DNA of 64,000 bases from Risungbinella massiliensis (GTDB taxonomy: Bacteria; Bacillota; Bacilli; Thermoactinomycetales; Thermoactinomycetaceae), in NCBI RefSeq assembly GCF_000942395.1, contig NZ_LN812103.1, positions 749,394 to 813,393 on the forward strand, in the 5' to 3' direction. Both the position numbers and the translations under genes were made by a program. This document shows positions 8,003 through 57,126 of the stretch, in pieces (within the stretch, counting starts at the first letter, position 1; the number at the start of each line of letters is the position of its first letter). A model generated the notes under the pieces. It did no database searches. It saw only the letters and a program-made list of their open reading frames with translations, and was not told the DNA's origin.

Positions 8003-8470
8003 ATGCAAAAAGCAGATTTATTAGATGAGCTCCGTGCAGAGATCGGACTCATGTCTGATCGGTACCCGACTGAATTCTCTATCTTTTATAAGTTTGTCTG
8101 TACCTCCATCTTTCAAAGTATACGAGAGTATGTCAGTGTATCCCTTTATATTCCGGAAGAAGGGTTTTTTCGAAGGGAATACCATGCGGGAGAAAGTGTT
8201 TTTCCTATTATTCTTCCCTTTGGAGATGATCTTCTAACATTAGCAGGGATGAGAGGGGGATTGCTCTGGGAAAAAAGAAAACATTATCATTTTGTTGCGT
8301 ATCCTTTTTATCGAGGACATCATCTCGCCGGAGTTCTCTTGATCCTAACAGTAGAAGATCACAAGCTAGAAGAAGAGGAAGTTCTTTTTTTGGGTGAGCT
8401 GATCCATTTGTTTGAGAATAAAGAAAACATGGATTTACTAGATATGGATGATGAAGGAGAGCTCGGATAA
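8003..8470 (+). CDS. GAF-like domain protein
   Basis: About 155 residues. The fold suggested by the sequence (helix, then YVSVSLYIPEEGFFRREYHAG, then YHFVAYPFYRGHHLAGVLLIL) resembles a single GAF sensor domain with no output domain. The ATG at 8003 is one choice; an in-frame TTG at 7979 would add eight residues. AAAGG lies 11 nt before the ATG and GGAG about 20 nt before, so the start is uncertain. The acidic tail ends at a terminator that overlaps the stop codon. Ligand and partner are unknown. Confidence 0.6.
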   Translation: MQKADLLDELRAEIGLMSDRYPTEFSIFYKFVCTSIFQSIREYVSVSLYIPEEGFFRREYHAGESVFPIILPFGDDLLTLAGMRGGLLWEKRKHYHFVAYPFYRGHHLAGVLLILTVEDHKLEEEEVLFLGELIHLFENKENMDLLDMDDEGELG

Positions 8471-48105: not shown

Positions 48106-48296
48106 GGTATGAGTAGGGATTCAAAAAAGGTGAGTTCCTTTTATAATTGGTATGAGGTTCTTTTGTTTTTTAAATTTTTTGATTAATGGTTGCGATACTA
48201 AAATTGTCATTGTATAGTAATAGACATTCAATAACGGATCTTGTACATCTAGAGATTATCCATTCCAAGAATAGCAAGGAACACGGAGGAGAACGG

Positions 48297-48751
48297 ATGG
48301 AACATCAGATTCTAGAGCTTTTACAAGAACTAAATAAGAATCAACAAGAGCTGAATCAGAAGGTAGATGGTCTTCAACAGGAATTACAAAGTACTAAAAT
48401 GGAACTGAATCTAAAGGTAGATAGTCTTCAACAGGAAGTGCACAGTACAAAAGTTGAACTGAATCAAAAGGTAGATGGTCTTCATCAAGAGTTACAAGAT
48501 ACGAAATCTGAGCAAAACAGGAAATACAATCAGTAAGAGACAACATAAATAGCCTGCATGAAAATGTCGTGGATCTATTTGAAACAATGAACGGCAAAAT
48601 TACTTTTATGCAAGAACCATTAGCAGTAGTATCGGAAATAGCAGTCACAAAAGAGGAATTAGAACGAGCAGAAAGAACAACAGATACACTTGCAGGTGAT
48701 TTTTATCGATTAAAAGCGCAAGTGTCTGAATGGAAACGTCAGACTTCCTAA
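48297..48751 (+). pseudogene. Coiled-coil repeat protein, frameshifted
   Basis: The ATG at 48297 follows CGGAGGAG. Reading begins MEHQILELLQELNKNQQ and enters three 18-residue repeats, ELNQKVDGLQQELQSTKM and two variants. The frame ends at 48536, but the +1 frame continues without a stop (KQEIQSVRDNINSLHENV, then DLFETMNGKITF) to TSQ-less end KRQTS at 48751. One base is missing or extra near 48514 in the AAAA run. Restored length is about 150 residues, a pure coiled coil without membrane segment. Similar proteins occur widely in Bacillales without a known function. Confidence 0.65.
48348..48509 (+). repeat. Three tandem 54-bp coding repeats
   Basis: Units 48348-48401, 48402-48455 and 48456-48509 each encode an 18-aa heptad-like block starting EL-Q/L-KVD. 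A fourth unit starts (GAGCAAAAC) and is where the reading frame is lost. Confidence 0.85.
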
Positions 48752-48768
48752 TTAGGTGGTCTTTTTTT
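48741..48768 (+). terminator. Terminator of the coiled-coil gene
   Basis: AGAC-TTCCTA / TAGG-GGTCT type stem overlapping the stop codon, followed by seven Ts. Confidence 0.6.
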
Positions 48769-48810
48769 GTATATGGGAGTAAAAGTATGACCAATGAAGT
48801 GGCATCGCAG

Positions 48811-48850
48811 CAAAGAAAAAGACCGCATTCATTTGCGATCTTTTTCTTTG
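48811..48850. terminator. Bidirectional hairpin
   Basis: CAAAGAAAAAGA-CGCA pairs with TGCG-TCTTTTTCTTTG. The A and T arms allow termination on either strand. It lies downstream of the HTH-TPR regulator on the - strand. Confidence 0.65.
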
Positions 48851-48883
48851 CCTTGTCGTTTTCATTGTATCTTTTTAGCCTCG

Positions 48884-48910
48884 CTAAGGAGGATCGCTTT
48901 CAAAAGTCAT
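48884..48910 (-). CDS. Eight-codon coupled mini-ORF (MTFESDPP)
   Basis: The ATG (48910) overlaps the stop of the repaired regulator frame (GTATGA). It is preceded at nine nt by AGGAGGTGATCA, a 12-nt perfect match to the 16S rRNA 3' end. The ORF is MTFESDPP then TAG. Its codons GATCCTCC can pair with GGAGGTGATC, so the ribosome site may be sequestered. RRNPP regulators often have a peptide gene just downstream. A role as signal peptide is speculative. Confidence 0.35.
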   Translation of the reverse strand: MTFESDPP

Positions 48911-49019
48911 ACCTGATCACCTCCTCGAATTAGTAAATGTATTTCTTCTAAACAGGCGATATATTTATCCTGCCGGTTTACCAACTTCCAACAATCAGAC
49001 AGACTGACGAGGATGTCCT

Positions 49020-50204
49020 TTAAGGGGTTTGAAAAATGATTTTTACGGCGATTGCTCGGGCTTCTTCTAAGGAAATGATTGCTTCAAAATATTTGCTTTC
49101 TTTTATCAAGAAATCTGCAAATTTTGTTAAAGCAAAACAGTGTCGTTGAGCATCTTTTGTACTTGCTCCTTCTTTTAGAGCACGGTTGAAGTATTCTGAT
49201 GCGTCTTCATTTTGTTTTAAATGGCTGTATAGGATACCTAGACTGGTGTATGAAGTAACTAGCAAATCACGTGCTTTTGTTTTGGGTTCTAATTCTAAGG
49301 ATTGCAAATACAGTTCTTCTGCTTGCTTATAATCTTTTAAACTAAAACAGATATTCCCCCATGTTGTGAGTAACTCCTGTGATCTTCGATGACGTTGGTT
49401 AATGGAAGATAGAGCAAAGCCTTCTTTGACATAATCTAATGCTTTCTTGTACTCCCCCTTTTTGTTTAAGATAGATGCTTTGATCTCGTAAGCGTTTAAG
49501 CGTACTTCTAGATCCGGAACTTCCTGAAACGACTCCCAATACTCATTTAGAAGATGCATCGATTCATCGATCAGATTCAACTTATCAAGATAGGATGCTT
49601 TCCCGACAATCAGATAGAGACGTATATCTTGCCGCTCTCCATCTTTATCGTAATAATCTAATCCTTCATTTACATATTCCAATGCCTTTTGGATGTCATT
49701 TTGTTCAAAAAAGCAAACTCGGGCAAGTTCTTTGTAACAACAAGAAATGAAGTTAGTAGAGAATAACTTGTTCTTTTGACATATCTCGATACAAGTATTC
49801 AGGTAACTCTTTGTTTTATTCCAATTGGACTTTTTAAAGTAGTACTTTCCTTTTAGGTAGTAATATTCGCTTAGAAGTTCTTTGTTGGTTTCACATTGTG
49901 ATTGGAGTGTCCGAAAAGTAGGAAGTACATTGTCCAGAAGTCCTGAATCTATTTTGGAAGCTAGCAAAAATAATTTTTGTTTTACCTCATTCACGTCATG
50001 TTGTTCATTCAAAGACAGTTCGGCAAGATTTTGAATGCCGAGCTTCTTTACATAATAATCTCGTTTAGGCTTGCGTACTTTAATTCCTCTCTCAATAGAA
50101 CTAATGGTGGCAATTGATAATTGGTCGTCAGCAAGATCTTTTAATCTTAGCCCACGAGATTTTCGGTAATTTCGTAGTGCCTTTCCGATTTCTTCATCAA
50201 CCAC
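49020..50204 (-). CDS. HTH-TPR regulator (RRNPP-like), C-terminus probably frameshifted
   Basis: 394 residues as annotated. The N-terminal XRE HTH contains ALRNYRKSRGLRLKDLADD and SIATISSIERG. The remainder is TPR repeats (for example AEELYLQSLELEPK and ASEYFNRALKEG), the layout of PlcR/NprR/Rap-type peptide-sensing regulators. The annotated end (IIFQTP) is abrupt. One extra T in the T-run at about 49032-49036 would continue as NPLKDILVSLSDCWKLV and so on to GGDQV at 48907, which looks like a genuine TPR tail. So it is either truncated by a frameshift or affected by a sequence error. Target genes are unknown. Confidence 0.8.
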   Translation of the reverse strand: MVDEEIGKALRNYRKSRGLRLKDLADDQLSIATISSIERGIKVRKPKRDYYVKKLGIQNLAELSLNEQHDVNEVKQKLFLLASKIDSGLLDNVLPTFRTLQSQCETNKELLSEYYYLKGKYYFKKSNWNKTKSYLNTCIEICQKNKLFSTNFISCCYKELARVCFFEQNDIQKALEYVNEGLDYYDKDGERQDIRLYLIVGKASYLDKLNLIDESMHLLNEYWESFQEVPDLEVRLNAYEIKASILNKKGEYKKALDYVKEGFALSSINQRHRRSQELLTTWGNICFSLKDYKQAEELYLQSLELEPKTKARDLLVTSYTSLGILYSHLKQNEDASEYFNRALKEGASTKDAQRHCFALTKFADFLIKESKYFEAIISLEEARAIAVKIIFQTP

Positions 50205-50359
50205 TGTAACACACCTCTCGAATAATTAGTATTTTTTTAAGAATCTTTGCACCATTCGTCACAGTAATTTTCTAAAATGGCTATTTTTTAGAGACTTTAG
50301 TCATAATTATGAGTAAAAAATGACATAACATTAATCGGAACTATAGATTTTTCGAGAAA

Positions 50360-50545
50360 CTAGTCTTCACTTTCTGAGAAATATGCAAATTTGATGTTTT
50401 GTTTTCCTAATCTTAAAATTATTTTATCCGGTAGTCCACTACCTTCTACTACAAAATGTGTGATTATCTGTGATAACTTCCCAACTGGAACGGGGTATAC
50501 CTGTCCTCTTACATCAAGATAGAAGTACGTATATCTCGCTCCCAA
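50360..50545 (-). CDS. Small hypothetical protein (61 aa)
   Basis: A 61-residue frame beginning at TTG (MGARYTYFYLDVRGQVYPV) and ending KFAYFSESED, with alternating strands and no recognised domain. No convincing RBS precedes it. A perfect 17-bp inverted repeat (50516-50568) covers the start region, so a later start or regulated translation is possible. Moderately supported. Confidence 0.4.
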   Translation of the reverse strand: MGARYTYFYLDVRGQVYPVPVGKLSQIITHFVVEGSGLPDKIILRLGKQNIKFAYFSESED

Positions 50546-50568
50546 TCTCTAATACGTACTTCTATCTT
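50516..50568. repeat. Perfect 17-bp inverted repeat
   Basis: AAGATAGAAGTACGTAT (50516-50532) and ATACGTACTTCTATCTT (50552-50568) are exact reverse complements across 19 nt. On the + strand an AT-rich tract follows. It overlaps the start of the 61-aa ORF. Confidence 0.85.
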
Positions 50569-50887
50569 TATATTTATATAAAAACCAAATATATTGTTGA
50601 TGCTTATCACCCCTAAGGTGGACATTCAATTATTTATGGTAGTTCTACAATCTACTTCAATTTGAAAAAGATTAAGGGTGAGAACTCGAAAAGTAAGACA
50701 AAAAGACCTTATTCCTTAAAAGGAAAAGGTCTTTTTCTAAGTGAGGATCTTCTGTACCTTACGAGTTAGTCTTCAGGTGGATCGTCAATTGCACTAGATT
50801 TAGAGCTTGTTCTTGATATTGCATGATATTCTGCTCCCCGTTGAGAGAGGCGACAGAGTTTTATATTTTCAGGTTGAACTGATTTTT
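50569..50887. other. Gene-poor stretch with a repeated terminator and an orphan open frame
   Basis: No intact gene is seen. It holds the terminator-like repeat at 50693-50735. On the - strand an open frame from about 50890 down to the stop at 50766 reads VQPENIKLCRLSQRGAEYH and ends AIDDPPED with no start codon, like the 3' end of a lost gene. Confidence 0.45.
50693..50738. terminator. Bidirectional terminator, repeat copy 1
   Basis: AAAAAGACCTT, TTCC, TTAAAA, GGAA and AAGGTCTTTTT form a symmetric hairpin. A close copy lies at 51459-51498. Confidence 0.75.
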
Positions 50888-51401
50888 TTATCTGTATACA
50901 AACGTAATTAACTCTTCAGTTGAGGGAAATGCAAGTTTATTCCATGGGATTTCATCAAAATAGAAAAAACAACCTTTCTTGCTTTCGATGTTCACAATAA
51001 CTGTTTCATGATCCGCAATCGCTTCGTAGACTAATTGGACAAGTTATAATTTCATTAACCTCTACAGAAAGACCTGTTTCTTCTTTTACCTCATTTTTTA
51101 TTACTTCAAAAAGATCATGTCCACGTTCTACATGTCCTCCTGGAAATGCCCATAAGTCTTTCCTAGGCTCTTCGTTTCTTTGAAGAAGTAATACTTTATT
51201 TTTTTCTCTATTTAGAACCACTGCCACTACTACTAACTTTGGATCTAAGTAGAAGACAAATTGACAATAATGACAAAGTAGTTGCGGTTGGTTGGGAATA
51301 TGTAAGTTTTCTAGCGAAAATCGGTGTCCACAACGAGGACAAAATTTTAGATCCTCTTTTGTATATCTCCACTGATATTGAAAGTAAAGCTCTTTGTTCA
51401 T
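50888..51401 (-). pseudogene. Nudix hydrolase with N-terminal zinc ribbon, broken
   Basis: The ATG at 51401 starts a protein with a zinc ribbon (CPRCG and CHYC) and a Nudix domain. The Nudix box reads GGHVERGHDLFEVIKNEVKEE: the first Glu of the canonical box is His and the Arg of REUXEE is Asn, although the EE metal ligands remain. The frame ends at SDCGS. Another frame then carries a Nudix-like tail (FYFDEIPWNKLAFPSTEEL) to TAA at 50888. An internal deletion plus frame change is likely. Two key substitutions also argue against activity. Confidence 0.65.
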
Positions 51402-51458
51402 AATTAAATCTCCTTAGTAATGGATTTATTATGAGACAACTCGTCGTTATTTTTAGAT

Positions 51459-51498
51459 GTAAGACAAAAAGACCTTAATCCATAGAAAGGAAAAGGTC
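51459..51498 (-). terminator. Terminator, repeat copy 2, at the hsdS tail
   Basis: On the - strand GACCTT...AAGGTC is followed by TTTTTGTC. It shares GTAAGACAAAAAGACCTTA and GGAAAAGGTC with 50693-50731. Confidence 0.6.
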
Positions 51499-51586
51499 AA
51501 ACCTCACTTTTCCGGTGAGTAATTGTTGCATCATGCCTTGCTTGATGGATTTGTATTTGTCTCGTTTTTGCTTTAGGGCTAGTCTA
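51475..51586 (-). pseudogene. hsdS: hsdS C-terminal fragment
   Basis: The - strand reads LKQKRDKYKSIKQGMMQQLL followed by TGKVRF and stops at 51475. KQGMMQQLLTGKVR is the typical C-terminal end of type I specificity subunits. Only about 35 residues remain. It points away from hsdR and abuts the hsdR start, so the locus has been inverted or rejoined. Confidence 0.75.
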
Positions 51587-54237
51587 ATGGCAGTGGGACA
51601 ACGAGAGCGAGTTACGCAAGATCGAGTGGTAGAGTTGTTTCAAAGCAAGCTAGGTTATCGGTATTTTGGTTCTTGGCATGATCGAGCAAACAATCGCAAT
51701 ATCGAAGAGAGTCTGTTGCGAGATTATTTGTCCAAACAAGGATATAGCCAAGACCTGATCACCAAGGCAATCTATGAGTTAACGAGAACAGCTACCAATC
51801 AGAGTAGAGACCTCTATGAGAACAATAAAGCAGTGTATTCTCTGTTGCGTTATGGGGTGAAGGTAAAAGAAAATGTCGGCGAGAACATGCAGACGGTCTG
51901 GCTGATCGATTGGAACAATCCTCAAAACAATGATTTTGCCATCGCCGAAGAAGTCTCGATCAAAGTGGAACACAAAAAACGTCCGGATATTGTGCTCTAT
52001 GTGAATGGGATCGCGCTGGGGATCTTGGAGCTAAAACGTAGTACGGTCTCTGTCTCGGAAGGAATTCGCCAAAATCTGGACAATCAGCAGAAAGATTTTA
52101 TCCGTCCTTTTTTCTCGACTATCCAGATTGTCATGGCGGGTAATGATACCGAGGGCATTCGCTATGGAGTGATCGATACTCCCGAAAAGTACTATCTCAC
52201 TTGGAAAGAAGCCTGTGAGATAGAGAATGTCCTAGATAGGCATATTGTACAGCTCTGCCAAAAAGAGAGACTACTAGAGCTGATCCATGACTTTATCGTC
52301 TATGATCGGGGGATCAAGAAGCTCTGTCGCCATAATCAATATTTTGGGGTGAAGGCAGCTCAAGAGAGCTTGCGTATTCGTGAAGGCGGCATTATCTGGC
52401 ACACGCAAGGAAGCGGCAAGAGCTTGGTGATGGTCTGGCTGACTAAGTGGATCAGGGAGAATATCAAAGACGCTCGGGTGTTGATCATTACGGATCGCAC
52501 GGAACTGGACGAGCAGATCGAAAAGGTGTTCAAAGGCGTGGATGAAGAGATTTACCGCACTCACAGCGGAAATGATCTGATCGAAAAACTAAATGCCACC
52601 ACACCATGGCTGGTCTGTTCGCTCATCCATAAGTTCGGCAAGAAAGAAGAGGCAGATTACGATGCCTATATTGAAGAGCTGAACAATAGTCTGCCCAAAG
52701 ACTTCAAGTCCAAGGGAGATCTCTATGTATTGGTGGATGAGTGTCATCGTACCCAATCAGGGAAGCTACATAAAGCGATGAAGCATATCTTGCCCAATAC
52801 GTTGTTTGTTGGGTTTACTGATACCCCATTGTTAAAAAAGGATAAACAAAAAAGCATCGAGGTATTTGGTAAGTACATTCACACCTACAAGTTTGACGAA
52901 GCGGTTGCCGATCAAGTGGTGTTAGATTTGCGCTACGAAGCTCGCAACATTGACCAAAATATCACTTCACCAGCCAAGATCGACCAGTGGTTTACTGCCA
53001 AGACCAAAGGCTTGACCGATTATGCCCTTGCCCAACTGAAGAAGAAGTGGGGCACGATGCAACGTGTCCTAAGCTCCAGATCCAGATTGGAAAAGGTAGT
53101 AGCCGATATTTTACTGGATATGGAGATCAAAGACCGCTTACAAAATGGCAGAGGGAATGCCATCTTAGTCGCAGGTAGTATTTATGAGGCGTGCAAGTAT
53201 TATGAGCTGTTTCAAAGCCATGGTTTTACCAAATGTGCGATTATTAGCTAGTATCAGCACTCGGTCATGACAAAGAAGATGTCGGTGGCTTGTTAAGCAA
53301 TCGCTTGGAGAAGGAGAAAGAACGGCTGGAGGGTGCCCGTGAAAGTATTAAAGCTCTCTGTGAGCCTGTAGAGCCACCTAAAGACACGATGGCATACATT
53401 CGCTATTTCTGTGCGAAAAATACAGAAAATAGCGAGGAGTTAAAAGGGAACGAACCCAAGCGGTTGGCTTTGTATAAGTATACAGTTGCATTGATTCGGG
53501 CTTATGCCAATCTAGCAAATGAAATGGTGGAAGCAGGTTATTCCGCGCCAGAGATTGAGGAGATTAAGAGAGAAGTCAAGTACTATAGGGATGTTCGAGA
53601 AGAGATGAAGCGGGCTAGCGGTGATTATATTGATCTAAAAGCATATGAGCCTGCGATGCGCCATCTGATCGATACATATATCAGAGCGGAAGAGAGCGAA
53701 AAGATCTCGGCTTTTGATGATCTAAGCCTCATTGAGCTGATCGTAGAACGAGGCGAGGATGCGATCAAAGAATTGCCCAAAGGGATCAGAAAAGACCCGG
53801 AAGCAGTTGCCGAAACGATCGAGAACAATGTTCGCCGATTGATTATTGATGAGATGCCTACCAACCCCAAGTATTATGAAGATATGTCCGTTTTGCTCGA
53901 CGAGATCATCAAAGCACGGAAAGAAGCCGCCAAACATTATGAGGAGTACTTGGCGAAAATCGTGGAACTCAGTAAAAAGGTGAAAAATCCTGGTAATTCT
54001 GCCAACTATCCCGAAAGCTTAAATTCCAATGCCAAACGAGCTTTATATGATAACTTAGGTCATGACGAAGAACTCGCCTTGGCTTTACATGCATCCATTC
54101 TGCGCAACAGGTATGATGGATGGCGGGGTAGTATGATCAAAGAACGAAAAGTAATGATAGTCATCAAAGAACACATCAAAGATAAGGACAAAGCAGAAGA
54201 AATCTTCGAGATCGTAAAAAACAAGGGGACTACTAAT
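51587..54237 (+). pseudogene. hsdR: Type I restriction endonuclease HsdR, internal deletion and frameshift
   Basis: The ATG at 51587 begins AVGQRERVTQDRVVELFQ, the normal HsdR start. The nuclease domain has RPDIVLYVNGIALGILELKR (PD-ExK). Walker A is TQGSGKSLVMVW and motif II VDECHRTQ. Motif III is GFTDTPLL where GFTGTP is usual. The frame stops at 53251 (KCAIIS). The C-terminal part resumes in another frame near 53257 (ALGHDKEDVGGLL) and continues through IKALCEPVEPPKDT and YENLG-like helices. The helicase C-terminal domain between is gone. With no hsdM and only a scrap of hsdS nearby, the system is dead. Confidence 0.85.
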
Positions 54238-54951
54238 ATGCACCAGATCACTGTCGGAAACATAGAAATTGACGTAGTAAAAAAAGATATCAAAAACCTC
54301 CATCTTGGTGTGTATCCACCTAACGGCAGAGTGCGTATTGCGGCACCTTTGAAAGTGAATGATGATGCTGTCCGGCTTTTTGCCATTACAAAATGAGCTG
54401 GATCAAAAAACAGCAAACCAAGTTTGAAAACCAAGAACGCCAATCTCAAAGAGAATTTGTATCAGGTGAAAGCCACTATGTAGCTGGTACACGCTATCTC
54501 TTAAATGTGATCTACGGGCAGACAACTCCAAAAGTGATCATACGCAATAAAACCTATATTGATCTATATGTACGAGAAGGCAGTACGAGAGAACAACGTG
54601 AGAAAGTAATGATGGAGTGGTAATCGCAAGCAATTAAAAGAACAGATACCATCCCTCATTGACAAGTGGCAAGAGGTGATGGGGGTGGAGGTAGACTCTT
54701 GGGGTGTCAAGCTGATGAAAACCAAGTGGGGCACTTGTAATATCTCCGCCAAACGGATCTGGCTCAATCTCGAATTAGCCAAAAAACCAAAGCATTGCCT
54801 GGAATATGTTGTTGTACACGAAATGGTTCATTTGTTGGAGCGAAATCACAACGACCGTTTTGTAGCTTATATGGATCGATTTATGCCACGATGGCGTGTG
54901 TATAAAGAGGAATTGAATCGGTTTGTTTTGGATGATATAAAAGGGAATTAA
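54238..54951 (+). pseudogene. YgjP-like (DUF45/WLM) metallopeptidase, two frameshifts
   Basis: The protein starts at ATG 54238 (MHQITVGNIEIDVVKKDIK), in frame with the hsdR remnant so that the two are fused. A missing base at about 54393 (AAAATGAGC) and an extra A at about 54617 (TGGTAATCG) split it into three frames. The last has WGTCNISAKRIWLNLELA and the zinc motif HEMVHLLERNHNDRF, with all His and Glu present. In many genomes this metallopeptidase gene follows hsdR. The fused start and two breaks indicate loss of function. Confidence 0.8.
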
Positions 54952-54994
54952 GTATGTAGTTACGTTTTATCCTATAAATATTCGGAGTAATACG

Positions 54995-55041
54995 CAACAA
55001 AAAAAGGAGTTGGCAGCAAGATTCCCTCTCCTTTTTGTTGT
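54995..55041. terminator. Bidirectional terminator after the restriction remnant
   Basis: CAACAAAAAAAGGAG and CTCCTTTTTGTTG arms around an 18-nt loop between convergent genes. Confidence 0.7.
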
Positions 55042-55048
55042 GTCTGCT

Positions 55049-55573
55049 CTACCAATTCCCCATAACATAGTTAAAGCTATTTTCTGAACCTCTTTCATCT
55101 TTTTCTTTGATATATACTCCGATTCCTTCGATGATCAATTTTTTCCGTCGATCCAGCATCGGACTGATTGCAATCCCGTCTACTCCTTGGATACCAAAGC
55201 CATCTTCCTCTTCATCATAATAAATTCTCTCATCTAACCGCATGGCATCATCGATTTTCATCCCGATTCCGATTTTTCCAAATAGCAAACCTTGGTAGTT
55301 CTCATAGGCGAAAATACTTTCTAACTTTCCGTTTAGTACATTAAATGTAAGTATTAGGGTATCTTTAAAATTGTATTTAATAAGATTCGGAAGGGGCATG
55401 GAATAATAATTATCTAACCCAGTATGCCCCTTCCTAGTACGCCCACTTTTAAAATGAGGGAAAGTGTCAATCGTATCGTAATATTCCTTGATATGTGTTT
55501 TTAGTGTAAATCCACCTAAAGATTGACCGGGGATAATCGGTGCTTCCAAATCTAAAATACCGTACTGGTTCAT
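55049..55573 (-). CDS. Hypothetical protein (174 aa), possible immunity protein
   Basis: A 174-residue soluble protein starting MNQYGILDLEAPIIPGQSLG with Gly-rich strands, a GKIGIGMKIDDAM segment and an acidic end. GGAGG lies seven nt before the ATG. No family is recognised. It lies directly downstream, on the same strand, of the 128-aa basic protein, an order seen for toxin then immunity genes. A terminator lies between them, so they need not share a transcript. The immunity role is inference. Confidence 0.6.
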   Translation of the reverse strand: MNQYGILDLEAPIIPGQSLGGFTLKTHIKEYYDTIDTFPHFKSGRTRKGHTGLDNYYSMPLPNLIKYNFKDTLILTFNVLNGKLESIFAYENYQGLLFGKIGIGMKIDDAMRLDERIYYDEEEDGFGIQGVDGIAISPMLDRRKKLIIEGIGVYIKEKDERGSENSFNYVMGNW

Positions 55574-55599
55574 ATGTAAACCTCCAAATGGAATTTTTA

Positions 55600-55634
55600 A
55601 TAAAAATAGTACCCAAGTAAAACTTGGATACTAT
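55600..55634 (-). terminator. Terminator between the 128-aa and 174-aa genes
   Basis: On the - strand ATAGTATCCAAG, a TTTTA loop and CTTGGGTACTAT, then TTTTTATT. It overlaps the stop codon of the upstream gene. Confidence 0.85.
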
Positions 55635-56017
55635 AGTAGGAAAAAAGTTTTAGCTTTCTCCCCACGTGAGTTGTAGTCGGTCTCTCTACCCCAAACTACT
55701 TTTATTGTACCATTATTTGTACTAATCACTAGGTAAGGTATACTGCCATGAGTTCCTTGTCCTGAGTTACTTCTTAATGCGAGGATTGGATATTTTGGCT
55801 TTCCAATACTAAACTTCCACCCTTTTCCATATTTGCTTTCTGTCAAAGGTGCTTCGATGCGAACTAGATTTTTGGCTGACATTTTTTTAAACGTCTTATA
55901 GGCTTTCTCTACTATTTCGTCAGGATGGCTTTGGGCAAAATTGTCTAAGTTTCGATCTACATATAATAGCATCTTTAGTACTTTTTTTAGTGCGGGATTT
56001 TTCTCTTCTTGTTGCAC
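55631..56017 (-). CDS. Hypothetical basic protein (128 aa), possible orphan toxin domain
   Basis: A 128-residue protein. The N-half is helical (VLKMLLYVDRNLDNFAQSHP) and the C-half strand-rich and basic (YPILALRSNSGQGTHGS, then KVVWGRETDYNS). No signal peptide. The GTG at 56017 follows GAGGGG. The C-terminal half is compact, like toxin tips detached from larger polymorphic toxins, and an unrelated 174-aa gene follows. I do not recognise the family; the toxin idea is a hypothesis. Confidence 0.55.
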   Translation of the reverse strand: MQQEEKNPALKKVLKMLLYVDRNLDNFAQSHPDEIVEKAYKTFKKMSAKNLVRIEAPLTESKYGKGWKFSIGKPKYPILALRSNSGQGTHGSIPYLVISTNNGTIKVVWGRETDYNSRGEKAKTFFLL

Positions 56018-56062
56018 TATGTATTCCCCTCTTCTATCTCATGATGTAAAAAACAAATGTCA

Positions 56063-56139
56063 AATAATTTTCCTTATCCCCTCCTCCATATGCTTACTAA
56101 GCGAAATAAGCATATGGAGGGTGGTAAGGAAGAATTATT
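56063..56139. repeat. Long imperfect inverted repeat (about 34-bp arms)
   Basis: The core CCTCCATATGCTTA (56083-56096) and TAAGCATATGGAGG (56107-56120) are perfect. Outer parts AATAATT-TTCCTTA and TAAGGAAGAATTATT extend the pairing to about 34 bp with a few mismatches. The 10-nt loop is CTAAGCGAAA. Confidence 0.75.
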
Positions 56140-56260
56140 GCTTTGTTTTAGAGAAAAGGGGGATTACAAAGACAAACAAGAAAAAAGGAGTAAAGTACAA
56201 CTCGTTTGTACTATATCATTTAAAAAATTATGTGAATAGAATCACTAATGTAAAAAGGGC

Positions 56261-56314
56261 ATAAGATAAGGTCGCCTTCCCAAATTCATTCTTGAGAAAG
56301 CGACCTTATCTTAT
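56261..56314 (-). repeat. 15-bp perfect inverted repeat, terminator-like on the - strand
   Basis: ATAAGATAAGGTCGC (56261-56275) and GCGACCTTATCTTAT (56300-56314). On the - strand it is followed by GCCCTTTTTA, which would suit termination, but no - strand gene ends into it. Confidence 0.7.
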
Positions 56315-56345
56315 CGAACTATTCAAACACATAATTGTGTATCTC

Positions 56346-56404
56346 ATCTAGAGAGGGATTTTGTCATTGAAACGGAGCGAGTCTGCTTAAGATTTTCAGG
56401 AGTG
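56346..56404 (+). repeat. Dispersed repeat, copy B
   Basis: About 79% identical by hand alignment to 25670-25727 (copy A). It keeps TTTTGTCATTG, GAGCGAG and AAGATTTTC but lacks the left arm that lets copy A fold. Confidence 0.55.
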
Positions 56405-56471
56405 GATGTATCTGATAAACTACTGGTACAAATATATGTATAAACACTAAGTTCTGAAAGGAACAAACCAA

Positions 56472-56891
56472 ATGACACTTTCCAACCTAGAATACCGCCA
56501 CGAACCCCCATCTGTAGAAGACTACTGCAATCTCCGCGTCCAAGCAGGCATGAGCCCTCGTGGCAAAGAAGCTGCGAGAATTGGACTACCAAACAGTCTC
56601 TTTGCCGTTACCGTTTATGAGGGTGAGAGACTGATCGGCATGGCGAGAGTAGTAGGGGATGGAGGAGTCAATTTTTTGATCGTAGATGTAGCGGTCCATC
56701 CTGATTACCAAGGAAAAGGAATTGGTAAGAAAATGATGGGTGACATCATGCAATACATAGATAGCAAAGCTCTACCAGGTTCTCTGATACAACTTTCTGC
56801 AGATCCCCCAGCAGATAATCTATACAAACAGTTTGGCTTTGAATATATGACCGATTCTATTGGAATGTATAAATATATCTATGAAAAATAA
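56472..56891 (+). CDS. GNAT family N-acetyltransferase
   Basis: A 139-residue single GNAT domain with the acetyl-CoA loop VHPDYQGKGIGKKMM preceded by the strand VNFLIVDVAV and a C-terminal LYKQFGFEY block. AAAGGAAC precedes the ATG. Substrate unknown. It is the last gene of the accessory stretch, followed by its own terminator. Confidence 0.88.
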   Translation: MTLSNLEYRHEPPSVEDYCNLRVQAGMSPRGKEAARIGLPNSLFAVTVYEGERLIGMARVVGDGGVNFLIVDVAVHPDYQGKGIGKKMMGDIMQYIDSKALPGSLIQLSADPPADNLYKQFGFEYMTDSIGMYKYIYEK

Positions 56892-56922
56892 AAGTATGCC
56901 GATTATGGTATGCTTTTTTTGT
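56892..56922 (+). terminator. Terminator of the GNAT gene
   Basis: AGTATGCC / GGTATGCT stem (two G-U pairs) with a GATTAT loop, then TTTTTTT. Confidence 0.75.
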
Positions 56923-57126
56923 GATAAATTCGTATCTCTGTTATGATTGCATCTTTCTTCAAAACTCGCTATCCTATTTAGGGTATGTACGATCCATAGA
57001 ATACATATTTTCCTATCAGTGATCAATTTTCGTATGTAGCGTGATGAGACATAGGCAGTACCAATCCTGAAACATACGAATAATGTAAAATACCAATAAA
57101 ACAACTAGAGAAGGGGGGAAACTCCG

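Follow-up and report, generated by a model that had tools for sequence, protein, structure and literature searches.

A remnant type I restriction-modification operon with a YgjP-like metallopeptidase gene in Risungbinella massiliensis

Described systems and intact relatives

Type I restriction-modification enzymes depend on HsdM and HsdS to recognize and methylate DNA, and on HsdR to translocate and cut it. The window analyzed in this study is a stretch of 64,000 nucleotides from Risungbinella massiliensis (contig NZ_LN812103.1, positions 749,394 to 813,393), and its segment 51475–54951 is the leftover of an operon of this kind, with the original form hsdM-hsdS-hsdR-ygjP. Type I systems with a downstream M48 metallopeptidase gene are already in print: the published account of the E. 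coli RRDM defence island places an M48 gene downstream of the type I genes (PMC12255303), and it is through this description, not through protein comparison, that the island is likened to the present family. In E. coli C10, hsdR is likewise followed immediately by a gene annotated as an M48 family metallopeptidase, and the C10 proteins match the HsdR and YgjP profiles of the remnant's family at 1690 and 338 bits. Unlike the locus described here, the type I loci of E. coli C10 and the RRDM island are intact, with additional genes lying between hsdS and hsdR.

The nearest intact copy among the best 80 of 235 relatives belongs to Shimazuella kribbensis DSM 45090 (NZ_ATZF01000001.1; L025), a member of the same family as R. 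massiliensis, whose own genome comprises 3.42 Mb and is rated 99.93% complete. The S. kribbensis operon runs in one direction and encodes HsdM (799 aa), HsdS (425), HsdR (1009), and YgjP (242), with an overlap of 4 bases between hsdS and hsdR and a spacing of one base between hsdR and ygjP. Alignment to this operon reveals both the kinship of the window and its losses. HsdR is 78–79% identical in its 5′ part (residues 1–554) and 72% identical in its 3′ part, the YgjP pieces share 175 of 231 aligned residues, and the end of HsdS shares 21 of 27. However, the S. kribbensis operon is complete, with hsdS oriented along hsdR, whereas hsdM, almost all of hsdS, and 134 HsdR residues are missing from the window. 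A reverse transcriptase gene lies beside the S. kribbensis operon (L025:2417-4285, minus strand; PADLOC RT_UG13b, 429 bits).

The best 80 of 235 relatives come from bacteria and archaea and share 59–79% identity with the window HsdR over its 5′ part; their loci, selected for similarity, do not form an independent sample (L052 and L053 share layout and coordinates). Within this set, ygjP lies 3′ of hsdR in all 71 testable loci, at a distance of no more than 45 bases in 68. The exceptions are L080 (1,682 bases), L082 (468 bases), and L084, where hsdR itself is interrupted. In the nine loci without YgjP, the sequence breaks off no more than 110 bases from the hsdR match, and these are hence outside the 71. 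The interruption in L084 (L084:8001-11027, a Nitrospirae MAG) is an early one, by a stop ending at 8072. As a control for specificity, 20 loci with a more distant HsdR were inspected, seven of which have ygjP beside hsdR or within 1 kb past it; in three of these seven (L131, L132, and L133) it lies past the hsdR end on the opposite strand. No YgjP match was found in the other 13 of the 20, one of them a 4.9-kb contig. These seven loci share the pairing, which weakens the case for its being peculiar to this HsdR group.

Remnants of hsdS, hsdR, and ygjP

The features of the locus, in window coordinates, are as follows.

50693..50731, no strand assigned: hairpin repeat copy 1, a perfect stem with a T run behind it, resembling a terminator (−17.7 kcal/mol, z −3.8)
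51459..51498, no strand assigned: hairpin repeat copy 2, abutting the HsdS tail (minus strand −11.8 kcal/mol, z −1.8)
51499..51579, minus strand: HsdS C-terminus, final 27 residues (matched at E 2e-8 when the window was searched by tblastn with S. kribbensis HsdS)
51587..53251, plus strand: 5′ part of hsdR, ending in TAG at the deletion junction (HSDR_N, SWI2_SNF2, TIGR00348)
52820..52822, plus strand: GAT (Asp) codon in the GFTGTP motif, Gly in relatives
53243..53265, plus strand: deletion junction with a frame change; S. kribbensis HsdR 553–686 without counterpart
53266..54228, plus strand: 3′ part of hsdR in another frame, 72% identical to S. kribbensis HsdR 687–1007
54238..54951, plus strand: YgjP-like metallopeptidase gene in three frame pieces (Pfam YgjP-like; S. 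kribbensis YgjP)

By tblastn, residues 397–423 of S. kribbensis HsdS align to minus-strand positions 51579–51499, an orientation inverted relative to hsdR. The initial annotation had described a 35-residue HsdS C-terminus that faces away from hsdR and abuts its start. The inversion and the position next to the hsdR start stand, but the HsdS-like part amounts to 27 residues: the 35-residue frame extends to a TAA at 51475–51477, and its final residues belong to the hairpin repeat 51459–51498 and not to HsdS. Similarity to HsdS ends at this repeat on one side and within approximately 10 bases of the hsdR start (51587) on the other. The two hairpin copies are 93% identical (E 6e-9), point in the same direction, and flank a Nudix gene; folding gives a clear hairpin at 50693 and a weak one at 51459. 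No further copy of the repeat above chance was found in the genome, and a search for a second genomic copy of the junction region returned only the hairpin 50693–50731, all remaining matches having E values of 0.04 or worse. A consensus scan of 50600–51700 found two promoter-like sites (2.9 expected in shuffles) and one terminator-like site, at 51503–51519; the hairpin repeats were not reported by it.

The 5′ part of hsdR encodes a nuclease-type N-terminal domain (HSDR_N, 147 bits) and the first helicase domain (SWI2_SNF2, 234 bits), and matches TIGR00348 with 409 bits over profile positions 4–537 of 674, above the cut-off of 285. The PADLOC REase_I model (PDLC03044) recognizes the 5′ part at 922 bits and the 3′ part (ORF 53290–54393) at 343 bits. 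Judged by these scores, the HsdR pieces belong by descent to TIGR00348 and PADLOC REase_I. The internal deletion spans 134 residues, with the TAG at 53249–53251. S. kribbensis residues 553–686 are unmatched, and the frame switches across 53243–53265, in agreement with the earlier description of an HsdR that lacks its helicase C-terminal domain and changes frame. The reading of motif III as GFTDTP is likewise confirmed: the residue at S. kribbensis position 412 is Gly in 72/72 full-length relatives (from the best 80 of 235) and Asp in the window.

The metallopeptidase gene had been reported as broken by two single-base indels, and two frame changes are indeed present, near 54390 and near 54622. 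Against Pfam YgjP-like (PF01863, cut-off 26), the middle piece (54393–54620) scores 40 bits and the last piece (54676–54948) 121 bits; the latter keeps an HEMVH sequence, which we take to be a zinc-type motif. On these profile scores the gene is related to PF01863 by descent and broken as a gene, with two pieces exceeding the cut-off separately and no single open frame joining them. The 3′ end of hsdR reads into ygjP from 54238 in one frame without a stop between. The shared frame on which an hsdR-metallopeptidase fusion had been proposed is thus real, but YgjP is the normal downstream neighbor of HsdR and not a foreign partner. Of the 71 testable loci among the best 80 of 235 relatives, 66 have hsdR and ygjP in different frames, and in the remaining five the two genes are kept apart by the stop of hsdR. 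Because intact relatives have separate and nearly touching hsdR and ygjP genes, the apparent fusion is explained as a frame change at the hsdR end. The idea that YgjP was imported by the rearrangement was considered and rejected, given the position of ygjP 3′ of hsdR in 71/71 testable relatives (best 80 of 235).

Matches to hsdM within the window are at chance level (best E 2.8), and the presence of hsdM remnants there was rejected on this basis. The genome contains a single N6_Mtase match and a single Methylase_S match (E up to 0.001), which lie together on another contig (C6), both adjoining a different hsdR. This second type I locus (L105) resembles the family of the remnant in having hsdM, hsdS, and hsdR, here in open frames. 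Its HsdR differs: it has 1088 residues, matches HSDR_N with 30.5 bits only, and is missed at E 1e-5 by the profile of the remnant's HsdR family, and a YgjP match is absent across the 17-kb stretch. The C6 locus was therefore rejected as a supplier of the missing subunits, having a complete set of its own and another HsdR type. The genome has no cognate hsdM or hsdS.

A functional type I system requires HsdM, an HsdS with target recognition domains, and an HsdR with a nuclease and two helicase domains, a set that the locus does not provide. Neither restriction nor modification should remain, because hsdM and hsdS are gone and the second helicase domain is deleted. The view of the locus as a rearranged type I remnant thus holds: it consists of fragments, an inverted tail, a missing stretch, and frame changes, and the fragments should be non-functional. 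The locus is very probably a dead type I restriction-modification operon, found in one genome, whose hsdM-hsdS-hsdR-ygjP ancestor belonged to a widely transferred family. Its history may have begun with a deletion that took hsdM and all of hsdS except its end. Break repair, as part of that deletion or in an event linked to it, would have left approximately 80–90 bases of the hsdS end in inverted orientation beside the hsdR start; an internal deletion of 134 hsdR codons and small frame changes in the hsdR end and ygjP would complete the series, in an order that we infer. For the flipped tail, the most economical source would be a break repaired at the deletion end, during which a short adjacent piece was retained inverted.

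Age of the loss and alternative explanations

The number of independent lesions had been taken to indicate long decay after rearrangement, and these are indeed several (loss of hsdM and most of hsdS, the inverted piece, the internal deletion, four frame changes, and the motif substitution). However, near-invariant columns, relative-rate counts, and nonsense codons do not support this interpretation. Conservation was counted over 72 HsdR sequences of at least 950 residues and 70 YgjP sequences of at least 200 residues from the best 80 of 235 relatives; these 70 also formed the YgjP profile. Of 152 near-invariant HsdR columns, two are altered in the window pieces (F239Y and G412D), a number matched by the intact S. 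kribbensis HsdR and set against a range of 0–8 across the 72 relatives; of 39 such columns in YgjP, none is altered. In relative-rate comparisons with 11 outgroups, replacements unique to the window number 46–64 and those unique to S. kribbensis 52–74, the window having more in four of the 11 comparisons (largest chi-square 2.2). Between the window and S. kribbensis, pN is 0.137 and pS is 0.80. The pieces contain no nonsense codon except the TAG at the deletion junction.

Simulated neutral drift of 0.02 substitutions per site adds approximately 23–26 unique replacements and 2–3 nonsense codons, and 0.05 per site would add approximately 58–62 and 6–7, respectively. The simulated replacements and nonsense codons cap neutral drift since the loss at roughly 0.02 substitutions per site, a rough figure which is a bound and not a date. 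With several lesions and few substitutions, these data show that the loss is recent, and decay over a long time since the rearrangement is very improbable. The long open 5′ part of hsdR, with its well-kept residues, would also fit selection until very recently. Lesion counts can mislead on age, as in this locus, where several rearrangements and frame changes coincide with a protein sequence that has barely drifted.

Three other explanations of the locus were weighed against a recently lost operon. Both in ygjP and at the hsdR end, the frame changes are small, of a size that errors over an intact operon could produce. However, the approximately 3.4 kb of the locus contain four frame changes (at the deletion junction, at the hsdR end, and two in ygjP), whereas 29 window ORFs outside it (9,954 codons, ~30 kb) contain no frame break, which argues against random sequencing error. 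To serve as a control, a window ORF had to share at least 45% identity with a relative in the syntenic regions of two family genomes; two of the 29 align over part of their length (168/255 and 138/181 codons). Ten relative ORFs match the window in more than one frame; since their query ranges overlap, they are paralogues and not frame breaks. The lost stretch of 134 codons, the lost hsdM, and the inverted tail are moreover atypical of base-call errors, and the genome, with a completeness rating of 99.93%, has no second hsdM. Sequencing noise is unlikely to lie behind the lesions, and it is scarcely credible that the frame changes or the whole arrangement arose from errors of sequencing or assembly in an operon that is intact. 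A shortened HsdR, or an HsdR-YgjP read-through protein, could instead still be produced and have found a new use, given that the 5′ part is open for 578 codons from an upstream GTG and retains what we take to be ATP-binding and DECH-type motifs. Against continued production stand the Gly to Asp change at an invariant motif position and the absence of the second helicase domain, and in a simple scan the plus strand from 50870 to the hsdR start showed no promoter-like match; we regard such production as extremely improbable.

The inverted tail raises a further alternative, as type I systems that switch specificity by inverting hsdS have a second, opposed hsdS and inverted repeats, often with a recombinase gene. 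The direction of the tail is that expected of a second opposed hsdS, and on its strand it is followed at once by a hairpin repeat carrying a T run, resembling a gene end. However, just 27 residues are left, and the relatives offer no parallel: among the best 80 of 235, an HsdS match is present in 74, every one on the hsdR strand, and a search with the tail by itself gave 125 matches in 74 of the 80, none on the minus strand. As all 125 lie on the hsdR strand, the flipped tail is seen in no relative examined. A relic of a phase-variable, inverting hsdS pair is without support in these relatives, and we consider it unlikely; a tail retained inverted by break repair remains the preferred reading.

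The YgjP pairing and genomic surroundings

The locus itself is ordinary, being one more recently lost restriction system, and the YgjP pairing is the more interesting lead. The strict hsdR-ygjP pair (71/71 testable loci among the best 80 of 235 relatives) poses a testable question about a little-studied metallopeptidase. PADLOC models gave no match to S. kribbensis YgjP at E 0.001; a literature search pairing “YgjP” with “type I restriction” found no paper, nor did the searches done for a role of a YgjP-like metallopeptidase in type I operons. Control of EcoKI HsdR by ClpXP is described in published work (PMC4231737, PMC11109961), and by likeness to it a control role may be suggested for YgjP. 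It is tempting to speculate that YgjP serves this type I family as a functioning fourth component, for instance a built-in protease that limits HsdR activity on host DNA, although we hold this to be doubtful. That ygjP is broken along with the endonuclease is as expected if YgjP has no other job.

Between ftsW and murB, within a division and cell wall gene cluster, lies the accessory stretch that contains the remnant. The gap between these two genes measures 9.0 kb in the window (48106–57126), compared with at most 1.54 kb in 21/21 relatives that have both genes; 22 relatives were searched, and the one without either match is an incomplete genome. Besides the remnant, 48106–57126 holds an XRE-TPR gene, the Nudix gene, and small ORFs. 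The Nudix gene (50900–51401, minus strand) has an apparent frame change near 51030, toward its 3′ end, as judged by eye, and the XRE-TPR regulator gene (48960–50204, minus strand) has one near 49040, also toward its 3′ end, for which the evidence is a second, weak match with the XRE-TPR protein of S. kribbensis.

The ftsW-murB gap of the window is without MurG, and the best MurG of the genome is encoded at G000:C6:638980-640017 (L117; the other NCBIfam type, NF009102, 510 bits). In seven of ten fetched relatives the gap contains a long ORF with a MurG-like start, and the one checked by profile is MurG. In five of the searched relatives, the gap is shorter than 300 bases.
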